Shown here one piece after another: positions 4,035-30,335 of a stretch of 31,251 nucleotides of DNA. This DNA is from a virus. The notes below the pieces were generated by a model. It had not been told where the DNA came from. It did not search any database and worked only from the letters and a program-made list of their open reading frames with translations. The first letter of the stretch is position 1. Each line of letters starts with the position of its first letter. The stretch spans positions 1 to 31,251 of IMG/VR virus record IMGVR_UViG_3300031963_000630; one strand, given 5' to 3'. The position numbers and the translations under genes were made by a program.

Positions 4035-4381
4035 TTCTTCTCCTCTAGCCATTGTGTTAAGTCTTGGATTACCCAAGTCTTTTCTATTCCTGCGTTTCTT
4101 CTTTTGAAAAGAACATAAGATAAAGGCCTAGCAACGCCACGATGCTTAGCATAATTATCAGCTTCCTTTTGCGCTTCATCCCAGAACTCCTTTAGGTTCA
4201 ACTTCTTAGTATTCTTTAATTCAAAGATGTAGGTTTGACCGGCAACTATAACTACTAGATCTCCCTCATCCTCTGCTCCTGATAAGCGCAAGCGTTCAGC
4301 TACTGCGCCCATCTTCCTAAACCATTTCATTACATCAACTTCAAACTGAGAACCCTTTTGTTTATTGTACTTGGCTGTCAC
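4031..4381 (-). CDS. Holliday-junction-resolvase-like PD-(D/E)XK nuclease
   Basis: This 116-residue protein has the small resolvase fold pattern. KGSQFEVDVMKWFRKMG (residues 9-25) supplies the first acidic helix. SGAEDEGDLVVIV supplies Asp41, and YIFELKNT supplies Glu54-x-Lys56, the E-x-K of the PD-(D/E)XK site. It would cleave branched DNA intermediates of phage replication or recombination. The start is GTG and lies within the 3' end of the helicase gene. Neighbours are the DnaB-like helicase and primase, consistent with this role. A structure-specific nuclease of a related subfamily remains possible. Confidence 0.75.
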   Translation of the reverse strand: MTAKYNKQKGSQFEVDVMKWFRKMGAVAERLRLSGAEDEGDLVVIVAGQTYIFELKNTKKLNLKEFWDEAQKEADNYAKHRGVARPLSYVLFKRRNAGIEKTWVIQDLTQWLEEKK

Positions 4382-5204
4382 TTAGTAGGGCATCCCTTCT
4401 ATACATACGACCATACTCATCTGCATCACTGATCTGACACACAGAGTAGTTTACAAATAAAGTAGCAAAGTCTGAGCCATCTGCTGTATGTGGTCCAAAC
4501 CTATTCTTAACTGGTGCAACCTTTAAAGTTTTATCTAAAGGATCAAAGCCAAGGGTAAGTATTAATGCTGGTAGTTGTGAGACCTTACCGTGAATAGCCC
4601 TTCGGTGAGGTGGGAAGTTAGTCTTGCCATACTCAGTTTGTTCGCTGACGTGGTGCAAAACCATCACACAGGCTTCAGTCTTACGAGCCATATCGTGGAA
4701 CTCCACCATAATAGCTCGCAGTCCTGCCCACTCATTATCAGTTTCAGCAGCCACATTCATCAGGTTATCAATCACAATCAACTCTGGTGGAATACCAAAG
4801 AGTTCAACATAAGCCTTGATCTCTAACTCAATATCATCTAGTGATGGTGATGAGTCAAAGACAAATTGTATGTTGGACATATTATCTAGGTGCTTATCGT
4901 AGTAATGACGGTTACTATTTAAGTTTGATTCCACCAGTAGTTGACTGTGTCCTGATAGGTGAGAGGCTGCTCTCATCATCACTGTTGCTATGTCGGTATC
5001 AGCCGAGAAAAATAAAGTTGGAACCTTTGCTTTAACTGCATAGATAAGAGCAAACATACTCTTGCCAGCATTAGGCGCAGCAGCAACCATACATACCTGA
5101 CCTCTACGAAACTTGATCTGCTTTACAGCAAGATCTTTCCATACATCAGGTAGTGGTGTTGCATTGGTAGTGCTACCACGCCACGCTCTATCTATGTTTA
5201 GCAA
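4362..5204 (-). CDS. DnaB-like replicative helicase (RecA-fold ATPase)
   Basis: This 280-residue RecA-fold ATPase has Walker A AAPNAGKS (residues 42-49), Walker B LIVID (142-146), a catalytic-histidine motif region VLHHVSE (182-188) and a C-terminal KNRFGPH (233-239) resembling the arginine-finger K-x-R-x-GP of DnaB. It lacks the N-terminal primase-interacting domain of bacterial DnaB, a common phage arrangement. It probably unwinds DNA at the fork with the split primase. The start is TTG with a GAGG site six bases upstream. It overlaps the WhiB gene end by 17 bases and the nuclease start by 20 bases, so the set is co-translated. Confidence 0.8.
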   Translation of the reverse strand: MLNIDRAWRGSTTNATPLPDVWKDLAVKQIKFRRGQVCMVAAAPNAGKSMFALIYAVKAKVPTLFFSADTDIATVMMRAASHLSGHSQLLVESNLNSNRHYYDKHLDNMSNIQFVFDSSPSLDDIELEIKAYVELFGIPPELIVIDNLMNVAAETDNEWAGLRAIMVEFHDMARKTEACVMVLHHVSEQTEYGKTNFPPHRRAIHGKVSQLPALILTLGFDPLDKTLKVAPVKNRFGPHTADGSDFATLFVNYSVCQISDADEYGRMYRRDALLSDSQVQ

Positions 5205-5460
5205 CGTAATCCTCTCTAGGAAGAGTTATCCCTCTTAGCTGTCTAATTCTTTTTCTTTTTGCCGCAGTTATGCCGCCCCAAGTACCGAAGCGTTCCTTGT
5301 TGATTCCCCATTCTGCACACTCTGCAAGGTGGGGACATATCTTGCAGACGTTTATAGCCTGTTGAGTGTGGACTCTATCTCCATCCTCTACTTCAGGAAA
5401 GAAAAATTCCACACCCACTTCGGCGCAAGCTGGGTTCTCATAGTTCCAGGGAACCCGCAT
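5188..5460 (-). CDS. WhiB-family iron-sulfur regulator
   Basis: This 90-residue protein contains the four cysteines of the WhiB [4Fe-4S] cluster: Cys12, Cys39, Cys42 (CKIC) and Cys48. They are followed by the turn motif GTWGG (59-63) and a basic C-terminal segment (AAKRKRIRQLRG) as in WhiB DNA-binding tails. WhiB proteins are essentially confined to Actinobacteria and their phages, where they bind the primary sigma factor and adjust promoter use. A phage copy could redirect or dampen host transcription. It is the strongest single host clue in the window. Confidence 0.93.
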   Translation of the reverse strand: MRVPWNYENPACAEVGVEFFFPEVEDGDRVHTQQAINVCKICPHLAECAEWGINKERFGTWGGITAAKRKRIRQLRGITLPREDYVAKHR

Positions 5461-5463
5461 TGC

Positions 5464-5835
5464 CTATCTAATCCAGACGGTTTCGCATTTGTCTACAGCA
5501 CCTTTAGGTGCAGCACACATCCAACCTTTCCAAGGACCTTTCTGTCCTACGCCTGAGCGAAATGCCATTGAGCCGTGCTTACAATCAGGTGCAGTTGCAT
5601 CTGTTGCAGATACAGCAGTAGCGCCTAGTGCTTTCTTAGCATAGGCAATTGCTCCACCACTTGGTTGTGCGGTTACACCAAGTGCGGTGCCAGTTGATGT
5701 TACTAATGTTGCTACATCAGCAATTGAAGTTAGAGATGCCTCTAATTCAGCCTGACTAGTTGCATAAATATTTACTAGAGTTCCATCACCTAGCTTGTAG
5801 TTGATCTGGAACTTCGTGCTTTCCGGTGCAGCCAT
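5464..5835 (-). CDS. Hypothetical protein with C-terminal cysteine motif
   Basis: The protein is 123 residues. The N-terminal part (FQINYKLGDGTLVNIYATSQ) looks beta-rich, followed by an Ala/Thr-rich linker. The C-terminus CKHGSMAFRSGVGQKGPWKG with WMCAAP and CETVWIR has three cysteines and one histidine that could hold zinc. It lies three bases from WhiB and directly downstream of the exonuclease gene, the usual place for single-strand binding or annealing partners. That role is inferred from position only. Confidence 0.6.
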   Translation of the reverse strand: MAAPESTKFQINYKLGDGTLVNIYATSQAELEASLTSIADVATLVTSTGTALGVTAQPSGGAIAYAKKALGATAVSATDATAPDCKHGSMAFRSGVGQKGPWKGWMCAAPKGAVDKCETVWIR

Positions 5836-6804
5836 TTACTTACCTCCAGTATGTTTGACAGATAACCTTGTTGATTCCTGTCCTTGTTTCTTTGGTACGA
5901 AACCGAGAAGTTTCTCAACCTCTTCGGTATCTACTGATTCTCTACCACTAACAGTGCTCCAAGTAATGGATACACCGCTATTAGTAGAACCAGTAAATCC
6001 TTCTAACGCAGCTTTTAATGACTCGCGTTCAGTAGTCAGTTCTTTAATCTTTGCATCTAATTGTAAGTACTTCAAGGCAGATGTGTCCACTTCAGGATTA
6101 TCTATAAAGACTTCATCTTCCTTGATACGTTCTTTTTTTAGACCAGTACATCCCATCTCGCCCGACTCATCAAAGTACTTGCAATAGAACTTGCAGTAAC
6201 TTTGATCGCGCTCTGGCCCTGGTGCATCTGCGCTCTCTTTAATAGCAGATAACCAATTCAAAGCATCTTCTGCTAACTTCGGATCATAAGGTTCTGAATG
6301 AACCTTGACATCTCTTTCATCACCATCTCTTGCTATGGCTACTAGATTAACAGTTCTGGGTGACCCCTTTCCAGACTTGTCAAGCAAGTAGCCATATACC
6401 TGAACTTGCCAACGCTGTTGTAGCGATGGGAAGTAAGATAGATTCTTAACCTTAACGGTTTTCCAATCTATCACATCTCCTGTTTCTGGTATATATAAAT
6501 CTATATGAGCTTTCATTCCATTGTATTCAACAGATGTTTCAACCCAATACTTCTCACCCTTTGGATCAGCAGTTGATATTGCTTTCTCTATCTCAGCGTG
6601 GATAGCAGTACCCATAATAGCTGAGAGTTTTAATTCATTATCATTAGTTTCAGGTTGATCGTTAAGACGATACCAAACCTTACGGCGACAACCACCCAAC
6701 TCTGATGGACCTACCTGTGTCTGTTTAGATCTAGCCCTACCAGCATCCTTATCTCGTAAGACTTGTAGTAGTAATTCTTTTGGATCGGTCATATTGACAT
6801 CCAT
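5836..6804 (-). CDS. RecB/Cas4-like exonuclease (PD-(D/E)XK, probable iron-sulfur)
   Basis: This 322-residue protein has the RecB-family nuclease layout. The sequence GGCRRKVWYRL contains Cys39; IMGTAIHAEIE contains His69; AHIDLY gives Asp102; DVIDWKT gives Asp113 and Lys115; and QVQVYGYLL supplies the motif-III Gln. Cys39 together with Cys204, Cys208 and Cys219 matches the four-cysteine iron-sulfur clasp of AddB/Cas4-type nucleases. It probably resects DNA ends during recombination-dependent replication. The C-terminal about 90 residues include a coiled coil (KIKELTTERESLKAAL). An alternative start at 6792 (MTDPKELL) overlaps the preceding stop as ATGA. Confidence 0.82.
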   Translation of the reverse strand: MDVNMTDPKELLLQVLRDKDAGRARSKQTQVGPSELGGCRRKVWYRLNDQPETNDNELKLSAIMGTAIHAEIEKAISTADPKGEKYWVETSVEYNGMKAHIDLYIPETGDVIDWKTVKVKNLSYFPSLQQRWQVQVYGYLLDKSGKGSPRTVNLVAIARDGDERDVKVHSEPYDPKLAEDALNWLSAIKESADAPGPERDQSYCKFYCKYFDESGEMGCTGLKKERIKEDEVFIDNPEVDTSALKYLQLDAKIKELTTERESLKAALEGFTGSTNSGVSITWSTVSGRESVDTEEVEKLLGFVPKKQGQESTRLSVKHTGGK

Positions 6805-6962
6805 CCTATATATCCTGCATCGGGATTATCCCGTAGCCACTGCTCTCTCATCTTGTTCTGTTCCTCCCAGTTAGTATTGGTATCTCTGCAAGCCTTGACG
6901 CCATCTTCATAACCCTTTTCATAGGCTTCTTGGATAGCAAACTTTCTAGTCTTTATGATCAT
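6789..6962 (-). CDS. Small hypothetical protein, 57 residues
   Basis: The frame opens at an ATG overlapping the HslV-like gene stop and closes at a TGA overlapping the ATG at 6792 of the exonuclease. The product is charged and aromatic (FAIQEAYEKGYEDGVKAC, then REQWLRDNPDAGYIGW). The overlaps at both ends and continuous coding character support a genuine gene. No family recognised; the YEKGYEDG pattern suggests one amphipathic helix. Confidence 0.65.
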   Translation of the reverse strand: MIIKTRKFAIQEAYEKGYEDGVKACRDTNTNWEEQNKMREQWLRDNPDAGYIGWMSI

Positions 6963-7525
6963 TTACTTTTTCTTTTCTGCACCGCAATCTGAATAGGTGG
7001 ACAGGTATTGATATCTAATATGCTGGCTATCTCTACTGCCTTCTGTGCTATCTCAACTGCTTTATCTTGAGTCATAACCTGATAGTCAAGTGAGAATAGA
7101 TATCCAGTAGCAAATTGACCACCTGATCCAATACCATAAACCTTTAGTTCATTTTGTATAAATGACATATCACAGGCAATATGAAACAGATTAGAATCAA
7201 AGGCTATTAGATAATCAAAGCCACCATCTTTCTTATCAACATTAGCCCAGTCATAAGTGTTCTTATTGAAGGCATTGATAATAGATGGAATCATTTTCTT
7301 ACCCATAAACTGGACAGGATCTTCACCTCTATACGTTGGTGGCTTCCAGTTATAAGTTAAGATATCACCAGCTCTAGTATCACCGGTAATTCCAATGGCA
7401 ACATAACCAACTTGAACTATCTTGGGTGTGCCTAAACTAATTGTTCTTAGATTATCTTCAGTAATCTGTGAGTCAGCAGCAAGAACTACATAACCATTTC
7501 CTTGAATACCAACAACCGTAGTCAA
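6959..7525 (-). CDS. HslV/20S-proteasome-beta-like Ntn hydrolase
   Basis: This 188-residue protein begins MTTVVGIQGNGYVVLAADSQ. Removal of Met would expose an N-terminal Thr, the nucleophile of HslV and proteasome beta subunits. Asp18 (AADSQ, family Asp17), Lys35 (GTPKI, family Lys33), GITGDTRAGD and YGIGSGGQFATGYL all fit the fold and its active site. Length agrees with HslV (about 175 residues). The start is TTG with AAAGGAGG seven bases upstream and is the first gene of the leftward operon. No unfoldase ATPase (HslU, ARC/Mpa) is visible here, so it would need a host partner or act alone. A penicillin-acylase-type or other Ntn hydrolase role cannot be excluded. Confidence 0.8.
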   Translation of the reverse strand: MTTVVGIQGNGYVVLAADSQITEDNLRTISLGTPKIVQVGYVAIGITGDTRAGDILTYNWKPPTYRGEDPVQFMGKKMIPSIINAFNKNTYDWANVDKKDGGFDYLIAFDSNLFHIACDMSFIQNELKVYGIGSGGQFATGYLFSLDYQVMTQDKAVEIAQKAVEIASILDINTCPPIQIAVQKRKSK

Positions 7526-7552
7526 TATAGCCCCTCCTTTTGTCTTAAATTA

Positions 7553-7561
7553 ATTGTAGCA
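7553..7561 (-). promoter_or_regulatory. Candidate extended -10 promoter for the leftward early operon
   Basis: On the minus strand the sequence reads TGCTACAAT, an extended -10 element (TG-n-TACAAT), about 30 bases upstream of the TTG start of the HslV-like gene, with AAAGGAGG between. No convincing -35 hexamer lies 16-18 bases upstream. It is the only promoter-like element found ahead of this long gene cluster. Confidence 0.5.
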
Positions 7562-7707
7562 CTAGGCACAGACAATGGTGGGATGTGATAAGGACACGCC
7601 GTGAATACGATCTTTATCGGTTACTAGTCCCAGAATGTGTACCATATGAGCCGTGAGGCGAATTACGGTACGGGCGGCGCATTAAGCGCCGCGATAGTAC
7701 GGTCAGT
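7562..7707. promoter_or_regulatory. GC-rich divergent intergenic region with perfect hairpin and short repeats
   Basis: This 146-base gap separates leftward and rightward genes. It contains a perfect seven-base-pair palindrome GCGGCGC-attaa-GCGCCGC (7674-7692), GCCGTGA twice (7598-7604 and 7650-7656) and GTACGG twice (7668-7673 and 7697-7702) on either side of the hairpin. It is markedly more GC-rich than the surrounding DNA. A control region or replication origin are the natural explanations. No tRNA-like fold was recognised. Confidence 0.45.
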
Positions 7708-7944
7708 ATGTTCCGTCTACCAACCCTGCGAAAAAATAAAGATAAGATACCTGATAAATTTGGTACAGATCTTAGATCTCTAGGACCATTACACGCTTGT
7801 CCTTGTGGCTCTAAAGTCTTCTCTATCCTAGCTACCTTTGATAACTTTGAGATCTCTTGGTATATGTTAGATGCAACCTGCGCTAACTGTGGCAACCTAG
7901 TAGTGGTTCCCTGTCCAATAGATGATCCAGCCAGGGAAATTTAA
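7708..7944 (+). CDS. Small zinc-ribbon protein
   Basis: This 78-residue protein is the only rightward gene in the middle of the window. It has CPCGS at residues about 31-35 and CANCG at about 58-62, a two-knuckle zinc ribbon, with a beta-rich stretch between (VFSILATFDNFEISWYMLD). No ribosome binding site precedes the ATG; GATAGT at 7693-7698 could be a -10 box that would give a leaderless transcript, common in Actinobacteria. The function is unknown; a regulator is plausible from its position between the early and late blocks. Confidence 0.65.
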   Translation: MFRLPTLRKNKDKIPDKFGTDLRSLGPLHACPCGSKVFSILATFDNFEISWYMLDATCANCGNLVVVPCPIDDPAREI

Positions 7945-7947
7945 GGC

Positions 7948-7984
7948 ATAAAAAAAGAAGGCCACCCCGTTTAAAAGGGTGGCC
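7948..7984 (-). terminator. Rho-independent terminator of the late operon
   Basis: On the minus strand GGCCACCC, a nine-base loop and GGGTGGCC are followed by TTCTTTTTTTAT. The eight-base-pair GC-rich stem and T-tract make a textbook terminator placed 26 bases after the last late gene. For the rightward zinc-ribbon gene the stem lies downstream too, but no T-tract follows on that strand. Confidence 0.85.
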
Positions 7985-8009
7985 CTGTATAGCCTCGCAG
8001 TAAACTAGA

Positions 8010-25460: not shown

Positions 25461-28400
25461 TTACTCTCCTAGTAATCTACTAAATATGGACATATATGCT
25501 GTCAATGTATTTTCATTAAAGGTAGATAGATTTTTTATTTTACTTAGAGTTCCACTTTTTACCAAGTCTATAACTTCTCTATCGCCACCAGTTAATTCAA
25601 ATATTTCTTTTTGTTTTACATAACCATCATAAGCCTTAACCATTTGCCTTAAAACATCTTGGGTTTCAGGCCTAATGTTTGAGAACTTAGGATCATCTAA
25701 CATTTTAGATAGATCATCTAACGCTCTAACTCTTTCTACTGCTCTTTCTCTGCCCTTGCCTAGATATTCTTCTAGCATCGGGCGACCTGCCATATAAGTA
25801 TCTTTCCAAGTGTTATATTGTTGGCGGAATATTTTTCTTATTTGAGGATCAGCAATATTAGACAGTGTTGCATCAAGTTTGTTTTTTCTTTCATAATATA
25901 TCTCAGCATCTGCTGCCGCTTGTACTTGCACTAAATGATCTTCTACTCTTTTGTTCTCTCTAAGGCCCATAGTCTTCATAGTTCTATAAGCATCGTAGGA
26001 GAAAGCACCCTCATTAGGTATTAAGAAAGCAGCGCCCTCTTTATAGGTATTAAATAACTCTTGGTTATCTTCTACGAATTTACCAGAATCTTCTGCTGAC
26101 TGAAAGATAGCTACAGTTTTACGATCTGATTCAGACACTGTATATGGAACTTGGTTAGGATATAGTTCTACCCATTTTGCCATTGCAATATCTTTATCAA
26201 AGTTATTCTTTTCGTATAACTTATACCATACTTCTTTCCAATTTGATTTACCAGAATCTTTAATCCATTCAGCCATCTCTGATTTAAGTTCAGTTTGGAC
26301 TGAAGCTGGCGCAAAGAAACCAAATGTAAATCTAAGAGCAAGGACAGATAAGGTAGCGTTCTTTAATCTCTCCCTATATGCTTCTCTTTCGGCAATAGAA
26401 GGTGCTATTAAGTTACCGCTTGCATCTAACTTTTTTGGTAAACCATTGCCAGATGCCTCTAAGTATGTAACTGCTTTACGATAAGCAGAGGCGTATTGGG
26501 AATCTCTGTCATCTTGACTCATTAGAGCAAGCCCTCTATTAACGTGTGCTGGCATTAACCTAGATAGGAATGGTTGATTTACTGCATACTTACCTAACAC
26601 CATACCTGTTATGGTATCTACGTTTTGCTGTGAACCTTGGAAAGGTAATGAAATAAGATTACCTAATGTTGTTACAGAAAGAGCCGCTAATGGTCCAGAG
26701 AATGTTGGAAGAATTGAATCTGGATTTAAAGATGGTGTTAACATCTTTACAGATCCACCAAATTGTACTGGAAATGGAACCTTAAAGTCTTGTGGTATTC
26801 CCATTCCTGCTAATGCAGTCTGCATTATTCTGTATCCAGGAGCCATCATAGGATAAACAAAATAAGCATCACCGTTTTCATCTTTTTGAATAAATCCATT
26901 ATGATCTATTCCATCAAATGTGGCTGCTGCTCTAGCAAATGCTTCTGGGTTGTACTTAGCAAGACGACCTAAACGTCTGTAGAAATCTTCTTGAGCGCGA
27001 TAGAATCTAGCCCAGTTTCGTACTGCGAATGAACCTTGAGATCTAATTAAAGGATTATCTACATAAGATAGAACCTGCATAATAGCTCTTTCTTCTGCCG
27101 CTTTAGCTAACTCTGTCTTGGCTGCTTTTACACCAGCCTGATAATTAAGAGTTCCTTTTTGAGTACCTTTAGTCCACTCATCAATAAACTTTTGTTCAAA
27201 TCCAGTACTTCGCATTTCTTTACGAATACGGATTGATTCATATAATGCCATAGGTTGACGAGAGATACGAGCATTGGCAAGACCAAGCCATACCCAACCA
27301 TTCTTCATTAGGTTGTAAGTACGTTGTGATTCTTCAACAACTGGTACAAGTTCTGGTCCAACATATTCTGCTGGTAGATCCTGAAGATCTATGCCTCTAA
27401 CATCATCTAAGCTTAATTTACCAGAGATAGTGTAAGTATTTACACCTTTGCCTAAAGGAGCAGATGGATCATACTCGCGAATCTTATCTAAAAGATTTTT
27501 GTTTATATCGCCATCGCCTCTTTTGGTAACTAATTCCTTGGCTCTAGTAAGAACTTCCCTAGCATATCTAATATCATCTATATCAAGTTCACTTACAGCA
27601 GTTGCTTCGGACTTTAATTGCTTACCCCTTGAACTTTGTAACCAATTACGAAGAATCGTCATTACCTGATCATCAGGTAAATCTGCATTTGCTAAAGCAA
27701 GAGAACCTAATTCATCGTTACCGTAAAATCTAAGACGTAATAGATATCCAATTAATGATGCTTCGCTCTTATCGCTAGTAATTGCTCTAGTGCCAAAACC
27801 TGCTACATTTGCAGATGCTCTATACTGTTTAGTAGCAGTAGTTAAATCCAGTCTAAGTGGTCTAACGTCAACACCTAAATCTTTAACTAACTGCAATACT
27901 GATTCATTATAAGTAGCACCGGTAGCAAAGTTCATACCACCTTCAGATACCTCTGCTAATAGGTTATCTATATTACCGTAAATTATCTGTTCAGTTAGTA
28001 TCTCTATAGATTCATCATCTATTACTTTAATACCAAACTGGCGTAGGAAAGTATCTATCTTACCCTTAGATAAAGATTCGGCTAGTATTTTTCTGGTTTG
28101 ACCAGCAACTCCACCCTGGATCTTATCTTCTAGTTTTGCTATTTTAGATGTGATTTCCTCTGACTTCTTAGTATCAAAGGTTAGAACATTCATACTGCCA
28201 AGTTCTTTTTTAAGTTGGAATAGTTCTTCTCTATTATTAATTATATCTAAGTCAATTGCTTTTATTCTAGCAGCGTTTACTTCTGCTTCTTTTTTATTAA
28301 TAAATCGCATCATTACGCCAAGTGGATTAGCAGCAAAGGCTTCTAATTTGTCTAATCCTTTAACTGATTGCAAGGCTGTGTTTAATCTAGTAGCAGTATA

Positions 28401-30335
28401 TCTTTGCTTTGCAAGTCCCCAAGGGCTTGTACCCATAGCCAGAGATACCATTAAATCTTCTCCAGCATTACGGATTGCATAACGAGGACCAGCTAGAGTT
28501 AAGAATGACCAACCATTGGTCATAGTTTCTACCCATTTACTATTAGCTGTGCCTAGTACAAATTTAGCAATAGTGCTTTTGCCTGCTAAGATATCTAAAT
28601 CTACAAGGCTTGGTGCAGAAACAGTGGTATTCATTTCGCTAGGTAATAACGCTTTTTTAGATAATTCACCATCACCTAAACCGTGCCGAACATTACCTTT
28701 GTTAGCGTACATTCTAGATACAGTATTTCCAGTATCTGTTAAATCTAAACCTCTTGCATTATTAGTTTGTTTTAACAAGCCTTGATAAATACTCATTTTC
28801 TTAGCCACAGAATCTGTGCCAGCATACAATTCTTTCATTAATGTTGCAAAATTTGTGGGTGCAAATATTGCTGCGAGTCGGTATATTTGATCAGGAGCAT
28901 CTTTTGCAAGAAGATCAAATTCCTCATTTTTAAACATTGGTACTGGAGTTAATGATCTTTTAATCTTATCTAAGCCAGTTGCTATTTGAAGAGAACTAAA
29001 TCTAGCAGAGCCTTTTACCCGAACACCGTCTAGTGCTTCTTTTAATTTACCTGGTTCTAATTTAACAAGGTCGTCAAGTATACCGTCTGCGTTATCAGGA
29101 GAACCAAATACTGCATTTACCAAACTAGGTGATACTTTACTAATGTCAAATACTTTATTTGTTTCGGTAAGAACTTTTCTTCTTAACTTACGAGCAGGGG
29201 TTAGACGAGGTAGAATAACTCTTTGACGAGCTATTGACCCTTCTGCTACAACTTTCATAACATCTCTGGTATTTTCAAACCAAGCCTTAGCAGTACTGGC
29301 GCTTGTAATTGGAGTTGGTCCTTTAATAAATTCATCTATTACAGAACGACCAAACTCTGGCAAAAGGACAGAAAGTTCTTTTCTTGCCTCTGCTGCTGCT
29401 TGAGGATTTACACCTTTAGACTCTATTAATTTTTTAAGAGGTACACCAGCTTGATCCCATAAAGCAATTGTTGATGGTTGATCAAAGTATTTATCAAACT
29501 TTACACCCTTGCCACCAGCTTGTGCGGCAACTACTTGCACTGAATAATTATTTAAATCGTAAAGTTTTTTCGCTTTACTTAATACAATAAATGGATCAGT
29601 ACGTAGACGAAATATTGCATCGCCAACTCCTGATACCATTTTATAAAAGAAGCCTTGTTCATACAAATCACCAGGAGTTACTACATCAATAATATTTGCT
29701 AGTTGACGACCAGGTGAGAATTTGGCAGCATTGACAGCATTTAACGCTTCATCAAATTCTTCTCTTGCTTCTCTGTCATTCTTTCCTGCATCATTTGTAG
29801 GATCTGCTATACGAAGATAATATTTTTCTTCTTCAGTAGCATTGTTTATTAGATCCGCTATATCAGCACCTTCACTGATTTTTTGTGCAATCTTGACTTG
29901 AGCATCGCCATATTTTTTAGTGGCTGCTTCAATACGGCCTGTGTTATATACTTTCTCGCCATCTTTGCCTGCTTCATCCCAAGCAAAGCCAATTTGACCA
30001 CGTTCTACTAATGGGATAGCAACAGCACGATAGGTTTGACTAACCCTATCTGCTAAAAAATTTAAACCTTTATATGCTTGATAAAAAGTATAGTGATTAG
30101 CAGTACCAAGCCAGCCTTGTTTTGGCTTCTCTTCTTCAGTTTCATTGCCAAAATTTTGCACAAGGTTTTCTTGTTGTGCTTGTGGCAAAGATTTATATAC
30201 TGCGTTAGCCGCTTCTGCTGGCATAGCAAGTAAGTTTTTATGTACAGTTAATGCTTTACTTAGGTTATCTATTCTTCTTTTATCTTGCTCTGATAACCCT
30301 GCCGCATATGCTGCTGCTTTTAAGCTCTCAGACAT
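25461..30335 (-). CDS. Giant virion protein, candidate internal/ejection protein
   Basis: This 1624-residue protein is the largest product in the window. The N-terminal third is helical and charged (SEQDKRRIDNLSKALTVHKN). A hydrophobic stretch lies around residues 610-640 (WSFLTLAGPRYAIRNAGEDL), a long coiled coil around 680-750 (ELFQLKKELGSMNVLT, IAKLEDKIQGG), and another hydrophobic segment near 1205-1240 (FSGPLAALSVTTLGNLISLP). No polymerase, protease or transglycosylase motif was recognised. Position upstream of scaffold, not after a major tail protein, argues against a tape measure and for an internal or DNA-ejection protein, but a tape-measure-like role is not excluded. Confidence 0.6.
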   Translation of the reverse strand: MSESLKAAAYAAGLSEQDKRRIDNLSKALTVHKNLLAMPAEAANAVYKSLPQAQQENLVQNFGNETEEEKPKQGWLGTANHYTFYQAYKGLNFLADRVSQTYRAVAIPLVERGQIGFAWDEAGKDGEKVYNTGRIEAATKKYGDAQVKIAQKISEGADIADLINNATEEEKYYLRIADPTNDAGKNDREAREEFDEALNAVNAAKFSPGRQLANIIDVVTPGDLYEQGFFYKMVSGVGDAIFRLRTDPFIVLSKAKKLYDLNNYSVQVVAAQAGGKGVKFDKYFDQPSTIALWDQAGVPLKKLIESKGVNPQAAAEARKELSVLLPEFGRSVIDEFIKGPTPITSASTAKAWFENTRDVMKVVAEGSIARQRVILPRLTPARKLRRKVLTETNKVFDISKVSPSLVNAVFGSPDNADGILDDLVKLEPGKLKEALDGVRVKGSARFSSLQIATGLDKIKRSLTPVPMFKNEEFDLLAKDAPDQIYRLAAIFAPTNFATLMKELYAGTDSVAKKMSIYQGLLKQTNNARGLDLTDTGNTVSRMYANKGNVRHGLGDGELSKKALLPSEMNTTVSAPSLVDLDILAGKSTIAKFVLGTANSKWVETMTNGWSFLTLAGPRYAIRNAGEDLMVSLAMGTSPWGLAKQRYTATRLNTALQSVKGLDKLEAFAANPLGVMMRFINKKEAEVNAARIKAIDLDIINNREELFQLKKELGSMNVLTFDTKKSEEITSKIAKLEDKIQGGVAGQTRKILAESLSKGKIDTFLRQFGIKVIDDESIEILTEQIIYGNIDNLLAEVSEGGMNFATGATYNESVLQLVKDLGVDVRPLRLDLTTATKQYRASANVAGFGTRAITSDKSEASLIGYLLRLRFYGNDELGSLALANADLPDDQVMTILRNWLQSSRGKQLKSEATAVSELDIDDIRYAREVLTRAKELVTKRGDGDINKNLLDKIREYDPSAPLGKGVNTYTISGKLSLDDVRGIDLQDLPAEYVGPELVPVVEESQRTYNLMKNGWVWLGLANARISRQPMALYESIRIRKEMRSTGFEQKFIDEWTKGTQKGTLNYQAGVKAAKTELAKAAEERAIMQVLSYVDNPLIRSQGSFAVRNWARFYRAQEDFYRRLGRLAKYNPEAFARAAATFDGIDHNGFIQKDENGDAYFVYPMMAPGYRIMQTALAGMGIPQDFKVPFPVQFGGSVKMLTPSLNPDSILPTFSGPLAALSVTTLGNLISLPFQGSQQNVDTITGMVLGKYAVNQPFLSRLMPAHVNRGLALMSQDDRDSQYASAYRKAVTYLEASGNGLPKKLDASGNLIAPSIAEREAYRERLKNATLSVLALRFTFGFFAPASVQTELKSEMAEWIKDSGKSNWKEVWYKLYEKNNFDKDIAMAKWVELYPNQVPYTVSESDRKTVAIFQSAEDSGKFVEDNQELFNTYKEGAAFLIPNEGAFSYDAYRTMKTMGLRENKRVEDHLVQVQAAADAEIYYERKNKLDATLSNIADPQIRKIFRQQYNTWKDTYMAGRPMLEEYLGKGRERAVERVRALDDLSKMLDDPKFSNIRPETQDVLRQMVKAYDGYVKQKEIFELTGGDREVIDLVKSGTLSKIKNLSTFNENTLTAYMSIFSRLLGE

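Follow-up and report, generated by a model that had tools for sequence, protein, structure and literature searches.

A proteasome-superfamily threonine hydrolase gene at the head of the early operon of a freshwater actinophage and its possible role in host takeover

Results and Discussion

The first gene of the early operon of a freshwater actinophage encodes a protein which, judged by its conserved residues, is very probably a catalytically intact and active N-terminal nucleophile (Ntn) threonine hydrolase. The gene lies in the window, that is, the whole stretch of 31,251 nucleotides analysed here (IMG/VR record IMGVR_UViG_3300031963_000630). The best reading of its function, held with slightly less than even confidence, is that of a threonine protease which is self-sufficient and acts on proteins of the host. 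A fuller proposal is more doubtful: that these freshwater phages supply the only proteasome-superfamily protease to an order of hosts without 20S core, Mpa and HslUV, that they carry it as one copy at one of three positions, and that in the early-operon lineage with the GACAC box it is an unfoldase-independent takeover protease. If true, the virus brings its own protein shredder instead of hijacking that of the host.

Protease gene and family assignment

The features of the protease gene and its surroundings are as follows.

6959..7525, minus strand: gene of the proteasome/HslV-superfamily Ntn threonine hydrolase (188 aa, TTG start, Thr1 expected to be exposed by fMet removal)
7533..7538, minus strand: Shine-Dalgarno sequence AGGAGG of the protease gene, read from the sequence
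7553..7561, minus strand: extended -10-like element TGcTACAAT, recognised by eye; a similar TGnTAnnnT stands directly upstream in many relatives
7593..7601, minus strand: conserved box CGGCGTGTC, whose reverse complement GACACGCCG contains GACAC
6789..6962, minus strand: ORF of 57 aa that overlaps with the stop of the protease gene (ATGA) and occurs in some relatives, not all
5836..6804, minus strand: PDDEXK/Cas4-like exonuclease (profile matches), the next conserved gene of the operon
5464..5835, minus strand: Mycobacteriophage L5 gp49-like protein (Pfam)
5188..5460, minus strand: WhiB transcription factor, an actinobacterial host marker (PF02467, E 1e-12)
4362..5204, minus strand: DnaB-like replicative helicase (profile matches)
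7708..7944, plus strand: divergent conserved small ORF on the far side of the promoter region (CPCG/CANCG, zinc-ribbon-like by eye; no Pfam match)
7958..7986, minus strand: terminator-like hairpin at the end of the transcript of the lysis genes, lying upstream of the protease unit

The translated N-terminus was M-TTVVGIQGNGYVVLAADSQ and the motif GIGSGGQFATG was also present. The catalytic lysine is Lys35 with the start Met counted and Lys34 after its removal. The protein matched PF00227 (Proteasome) with 49.5 bits (E 5e-13), above the curated gathering cut-off of 22.4, and residues 1-187 matched the HMM of phrog_1040, 'peptidase HslV family' (E 1.1e-25; PHROGs have no curated cut-off). The ORF with its motifs and both of these matches bear out the original prediction of an HslV/proteasome-beta-like threonine hydrolase. 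The equivalog models were not reached by the protease, the scores being 34.5 against 157.75 bits for TIGR03692 and 35.6 against 137 for NF003964 (both HslV) and 14.5 against 191.9 bits for TIGR03690 (PrcB), and it also stayed far below the cut-offs of the curated models of archaeal beta subunits. By curated scores the protease is a member of the proteasome/HslV superfamily which is neither HslV nor PrcB. Relatives were found on at least 579 stretches of IMG/VR. A scan of bacterial genome contigs for copies of the window type, using strict patterns from alignment A1 which divergent bacterial relatives could escape, matched 79 stretches, and 0 of these were relatives.

Active site, selection and predicted fold

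The comparison covered 163 relatives, comprising 77 of the window type, 80 of the E7 type, 4 of the DSL type and 2 isolated phages; 80 window-type loci were collected and 3 of them were left out because the gene start fell outside the contig. Thr1, Thr2, Asp17, Ser18, the lysine, Gly47 and Arg50 were invariant in 163/163 relatives, and the Thr/Asp/Lys triad is thus kept in every one of them, in accordance with the predicted protease. Four residues of the GxGGxxAxG region, glycines and the alanine, were likewise invariant in 163/163, and the second Gly of GSGG was found in 162. The catalytic set of the proteasome superfamily, Thr1, Asp17, Lys33 and Gly47, is present, with the Lys standing here at mature position 34. 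The codon directly before Thr1 was ATG, GTG or TTG in 162/163 relatives and ATA in the remaining one. As the start codon directly precedes Thr1, these proteases have no propeptide, and a PrcB-type propeptide was ruled out on the same ground. The dN/dS values (Nei-Gojobori) ranged from 0.06 to 0.19 in 9/10 pairs, while dS was saturated in the tenth (L027/L037). By this measure the protease is under strongly purifying selection.

A single-chain model of the protease was built with AlphaFold2 using an alignment of 41 rows. The model (pLDDT 88.6, pTM 0.85) revealed the Ntn sandwich fold, its strands and helices in proteasome order, with helices H1-H4 present (H2 = 70-88) and no helix beyond the last strand. 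The Foldseek ranking against the PDB placed BPH first, followed by 20S beta subunits and HslV (E 1e-12 to 1e-10). In the VIA comparison, archaeal 20S beta and BPH were tied as the top two with a Z value of about 20 (rmsd 2.6-2.8, 167-174 aligned). Against a viral structure library the model matched other phage HslV-like proteins. The comparison with HslV and PrcB that had been suggested for the predicted protein thus placed the single-chain model closest to BPH, HslV and 20S beta.

Early operon and promoter region

The gene had been predicted to be the first of the replication operon, and this is upheld by the terminator-like stem after the lysis genes, by the box and extended -10 element before the protease, and by the overlap of its gene with the 57-aa ORF, behind which come the PDDEXK, gp49-like, WhiB and DnaB genes. 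Among the eligible window-type loci, the divergent small ORF was present on one side of the protease in 65/65, the PDDEXK gene was downstream of it in 69/69 and WhiB was downstream in 40/40.

GACAC is given as the WhiA/WhiB consensus in the available text of PMC4850268. The core GGCGTGTC was found on either strand within 150 bp upstream of the protease in 74/74 eligible window-type loci, with 1 other occurrence outside that range in 650 kb. In the window alone there was 1 box against 1.14 expected by chance (one mismatch allowed); the weight of the box is in its conservation and place, not in its count in the window. The core was also observed upstream of the early operon in E7, F5, G327 and G334; at this place G322, G331 and G344 gave no match. 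Since G334 is devoid of the protease and still has the box ahead of its early operon, the box belongs to the operon and not to the protease. A sigma-70 scan requiring a -35 element gave 20 sites against 32.2 in shuffled sequences, none of which was at the protease start. The GACAC box, nearly unique in the window-type loci, marks the promoter of the early operon (also in L053-L079, L085, G327 and G334). In many loci it overlaps an extended -10 element a few bases before the ATG, and this overlap suggests leaderless early transcripts. The phage WhiB may itself act at the GACAC box.

Phage kinship and position of the gene

The window also encodes a sigma-70 region 4 protein, a primase-like protein and a PF13252 capsid protein. 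WhiB is exclusive to Actinobacteriota (PMC10202952) and was present in 22/25 protease-bearing records, the 3 without it being possible fragments. Two phages, LanE43-AprE7 (E7) and F5, have been isolated on Candidatus Planktophila (OX376640, OX376641; PMC10202952). Window-type records contain homologues of the TerL, portal, giant, MCP, adaptor, lysis, gp49-like, DnaB, primase and sigma genes of E7, and their order is largely conserved. From WhiB and this kinship with the Planktophila phages we infer Nanopelagicales as hosts. The 1624-aa protein encoded at 25461-30335 (minus strand) of the window has no Pfam match; its homologue is a 1764-aa protein of E7, it occupies the place of the giant protein in Streptomyces phage Manuel, and it is possibly a virion internal or ejection protein. 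The Beephvirinae of Streptomyces (Manuel) have gene order and MCP similarity in common with the freshwater phages studied here, which suggests that they share one family architecture.

The position of the gene was analysed in a sample blind to the protease, consisting of all records of 28 kb or more returned by a lysis-gene scan (15/80 loci) and all additional records of 33 kb or more returned by a second one (15/80 loci). Exactly one protease match was found in 26/30 of these related phage records and none in 4/30. The gene was located after the portal in 14 of the 26 carriers, at the head of the early operon in 7 and just after the MCP in 5, so that 19/26 have it among the virion genes. In the E7-type loci it directly followed the portal in 64/64 eligible cases. 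Two copies in one genome were never seen in the phage records checked. The window contig stops short of the portal. In its relative G312 (39,656 bases), whose protease is 100% identical to that of the window, the gap between portal and giant gene contains no protease but small ORFs, three in number, of 45, 69 and 132 aa. Tree analysis showed that the early-operon type formed one clade (100/100), the post-capsid type formed one clade (100/99) and the post-portal type fell in three places. The tree and the positions together indicate that the gene changed place, each carrier keeping one copy. The early-operon lead of the original prediction therefore stands for window-type phages; what it did not capture is that most related phages carry such a gene amid their virion genes.

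The main rival explanation, which is unlikely and still has to be taken seriously, is a virion-morphogenesis protease whose substrate would be a head, portal or internal ejection protein, the window-type gene having merely moved operon. The sites after the portal and the MCP and the single copy per genome are in accordance with it; the virion-gene site in 19/26 records suggests late expression there, which fits morphogenesis better and counts against takeover. It is opposed by the early-operon site in 7/26 records, by the 4/30 records without a protease match and by Streptomyces phage Manuel (L395), which has no protease although its portal, giant protein and MCP are in the same order. The lengths and N-termini of the MCP were compared for 14 records plus the window. 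The MCP of protease carriers was 390-400 aa long in 8/10, the others being 308 and 317 aa, while that of non-carriers was 390, 395, 314, 324 and 321 aa; several of these MCP ORFs are short, at 308-324 aa. Neither length nor N-terminus followed the presence of the protease, and no cleavable N-terminal domain was seen. Phages of the same architecture exist without the gene, and the protease is therefore not strictly required for the head.

The protease could also be a counter-defence factor which removes a specific host immunity protein, though this is quite improbable as a separate explanation. The early site in window-type phages agrees with it, and the moves of a single gene between slots along with its absence in some relatives are accessory-gene-like. 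However, PADLOC returned no match for the window protease, and retention in 26/30 sampled relatives is high for an arms-race gene. Takeover, of which counter-defence is a special case, is placed ahead on two grounds: phages with this architecture can do without the gene, and its presence is not accompanied by any N-terminal domain of the MCP.

Host proteolysis

PF00227 proteins were found in 238/296 Actinomycetes genomes and were missing from 118/121 genomes of the order that fits the host (order of G064), which is probably Nanopelagicales. The remaining 3/121 genomes of this order have two adjacent PF00227 genes and Mpa. Seven presumed host genomes were searched, all single-contig and PF00227-less, 1.22-1.43 Mb in size; the GC content of their first 15 kb was 42-48%. 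Neither Mpa nor HslU was above the cut-off in any of them (0/7 each), while Mpa was present in 3/3 PrcAB-bearing relatives; the matches below the cut-off are presumably other AAA+ proteins. The likely hosts of the window phage appear to have lost their own proteasome.

On the phage side, 0 AAA+ unfoldases were found among the window ORFs scanned with Pfam (some small ORFs being outside the scan), as the original prediction had noted. The lack of an unfoldase partner in the phage ORFs scanned and the host genomes searched would also suit a highly specific, connectase-like processing enzyme or ligase, perhaps monomeric, and the available text of PMC8665760 describes monomeric, specific relatives in the superfamily. 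The predicted model is, however, compact with both helix pairs, whereas connectase is without the first pair according to the same text, and we consider this explanation very unlikely. The suggestion that the protease replaces or poisons the host 20S core, or co-assembles with it, draws on the fold similarity to 20S beta subunits and on the presence of PF00227 in most Actinomycetes, but is extremely unlikely, given the 118/121 genomes of the host-fitting order without PF00227, the 0/7 results for Mpa and HslU and the PrcB score far below its cut-off.

Proposed mechanism of host takeover

A stand-alone protease directed at the host is favoured by three points, namely early placement, missing host partners and the fact that some relatives can dispense with the gene. 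For such a takeover protease, Met aminopeptidase would remove fMet and leave Thr1 free without any propeptide, and by analogy the subunits may assemble into an HslV/BPH-like ring. In window-type phages it would be made first from the early operon, with expression probably via the GACAC box, host WhiA and phage WhiB. In a host without 20S, Mpa and HslUV the protease could work by itself or together with a general AAA+ protein, for example ClpX. Its substrates would be exposed or unfolded proteins of the host, regulators or defence proteins among them, and their degradation would favour takeover. The host order, oligomerisation, substrates and takeover role in this scheme are those that we infer. 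The actinophage clade, the cultured phages E7 and F5, the proteasome-less host order and the contrast between early and virion positions make takeover and maturation testable against each other.

Comparison with known systems

Phage HslV-like proteins have already been described (PHROG 1040; Fuchs 2021), and what is new here is the unusual host context and the gene position. Phage proteasome-like proteins have been listed since 2021, and the available text of Fuchs 2021 gave no functional context (PMC8665760). No functional study of such a protein was found among the titles and abstracts listed by the literature searches (subscription papers and preprints were outside them), and the words proteasome, protease, HslV, Ntn and peptidase are absent from the freshwater actinophage metagenomics paper PMC6802176.

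In the tree, the window clade, the E7-type, post-capsid and DSL-type proteins and the proteins of Microbacterium phage Pumpernickel and Arthrobacter phage Hum25 grouped together (93/92), apart from the AAH-like sequences (Streptomyces, rhizobia and other phages), HslV and PrcB; PrcB was represented by 3 sequences and HslV by 1, PrcA was left out, and several long branches are unsure. Profile comparison of the window type gave E 4e-29 to 1e-41 with the other actinophage types, against E 7e-5 and 2e-4 with the thinly sampled HslV and PrcB. On the question raised with the original prediction, whether the relatives cluster with HslV, PrcB or another group, they form a virus-borne actinophage clade apart from both.

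BPH (Thiobacillus 5ovs) and HslV are the best structural matches of the window protease. They differ from it in having only about 20-24% identity, and the window protein stays below the HslV cut-offs and has no HslU. Salmonella jumbo phage SNUABM-04 likewise has an HslV-like protein without HslU in the available text of PMC7823757; this is an unrelated phage with an unrelated host, and HslV is known there as an annotation only.

In the available text of Fuchs 2021 (PMC8665760), PPH (proteasome homologue of phages and their hosts) and AAH are group I homologues carried by phages, with neither a function nor an AAA+ partner known; that text reports no AAH in actinobacteria-specific phages. By the same text AAH, like the window protease, is a compact group I-like subunit, has no propeptide and is also phage-borne. 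The AAH-like sequences gathered here, whose labels are derived from their hosts and not from the published accession list, matched the window type in profile comparison (E 3e-19 to 1e-20), while in the tree the window type was in a clade separate from them. PPH is also phage-borne and without propeptide in that text. Identity with PPH was rejected, as PPH is given there as about 140 aa and without helix H2, whereas the window protease has 188 aa and a predicted helix at 70-88.

AAH-like homologues were also seen on large legume-symbiont plasmids, 19/21 plasmid records being from Rhizobium, Sinorhizobium, Mesorhizobium or Paraburkholderia and the other 2 from Streptomyces. Among the plasmid genes of L171, L391, L392 and L394, one is close to nifQ and rpoN and two have a gene for prolyl oligopeptidase nearby, and these homologues may be linked with symbiosis. 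The AAH-like gene on plasmid b of Rhizobium tropici CIAT 899 (L171 3001-3534) is unannotated, has an early in-frame stop, lies beside transposase genes and is probably a broken copy. Long C-terminal extensions were observed in the homologues of Pseudoalteromonas phage J2-1 (388 aa, L388 3001-4167) and Vibrio phage 1.101.O (288 aa, L385 3001-3867).

The protein WJZ48484 of Actinomycetia phage DSL-LC01 is 31.5% identical to the window protease and its gene also adjoins WhiB, but this is a 129-kb phage with another gene neighbourhood. For the Planktophila phages E7 and F5, the main text of Kavagutti 2023 (PMC10202952) mentions genes for degrading host cell wall, proteins and DNA, and the records OX376640 and OX376641 carry no annotation. 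Both phages, like the window-type phages with which they are collinear and related, have WhiB and sigma. Their proteases share the superfamily, catalytic residues and length class of the window protease and occur as one copy each, whereas they are only 26-27% identical to it and their gene follows the portal instead of heading the early operon.
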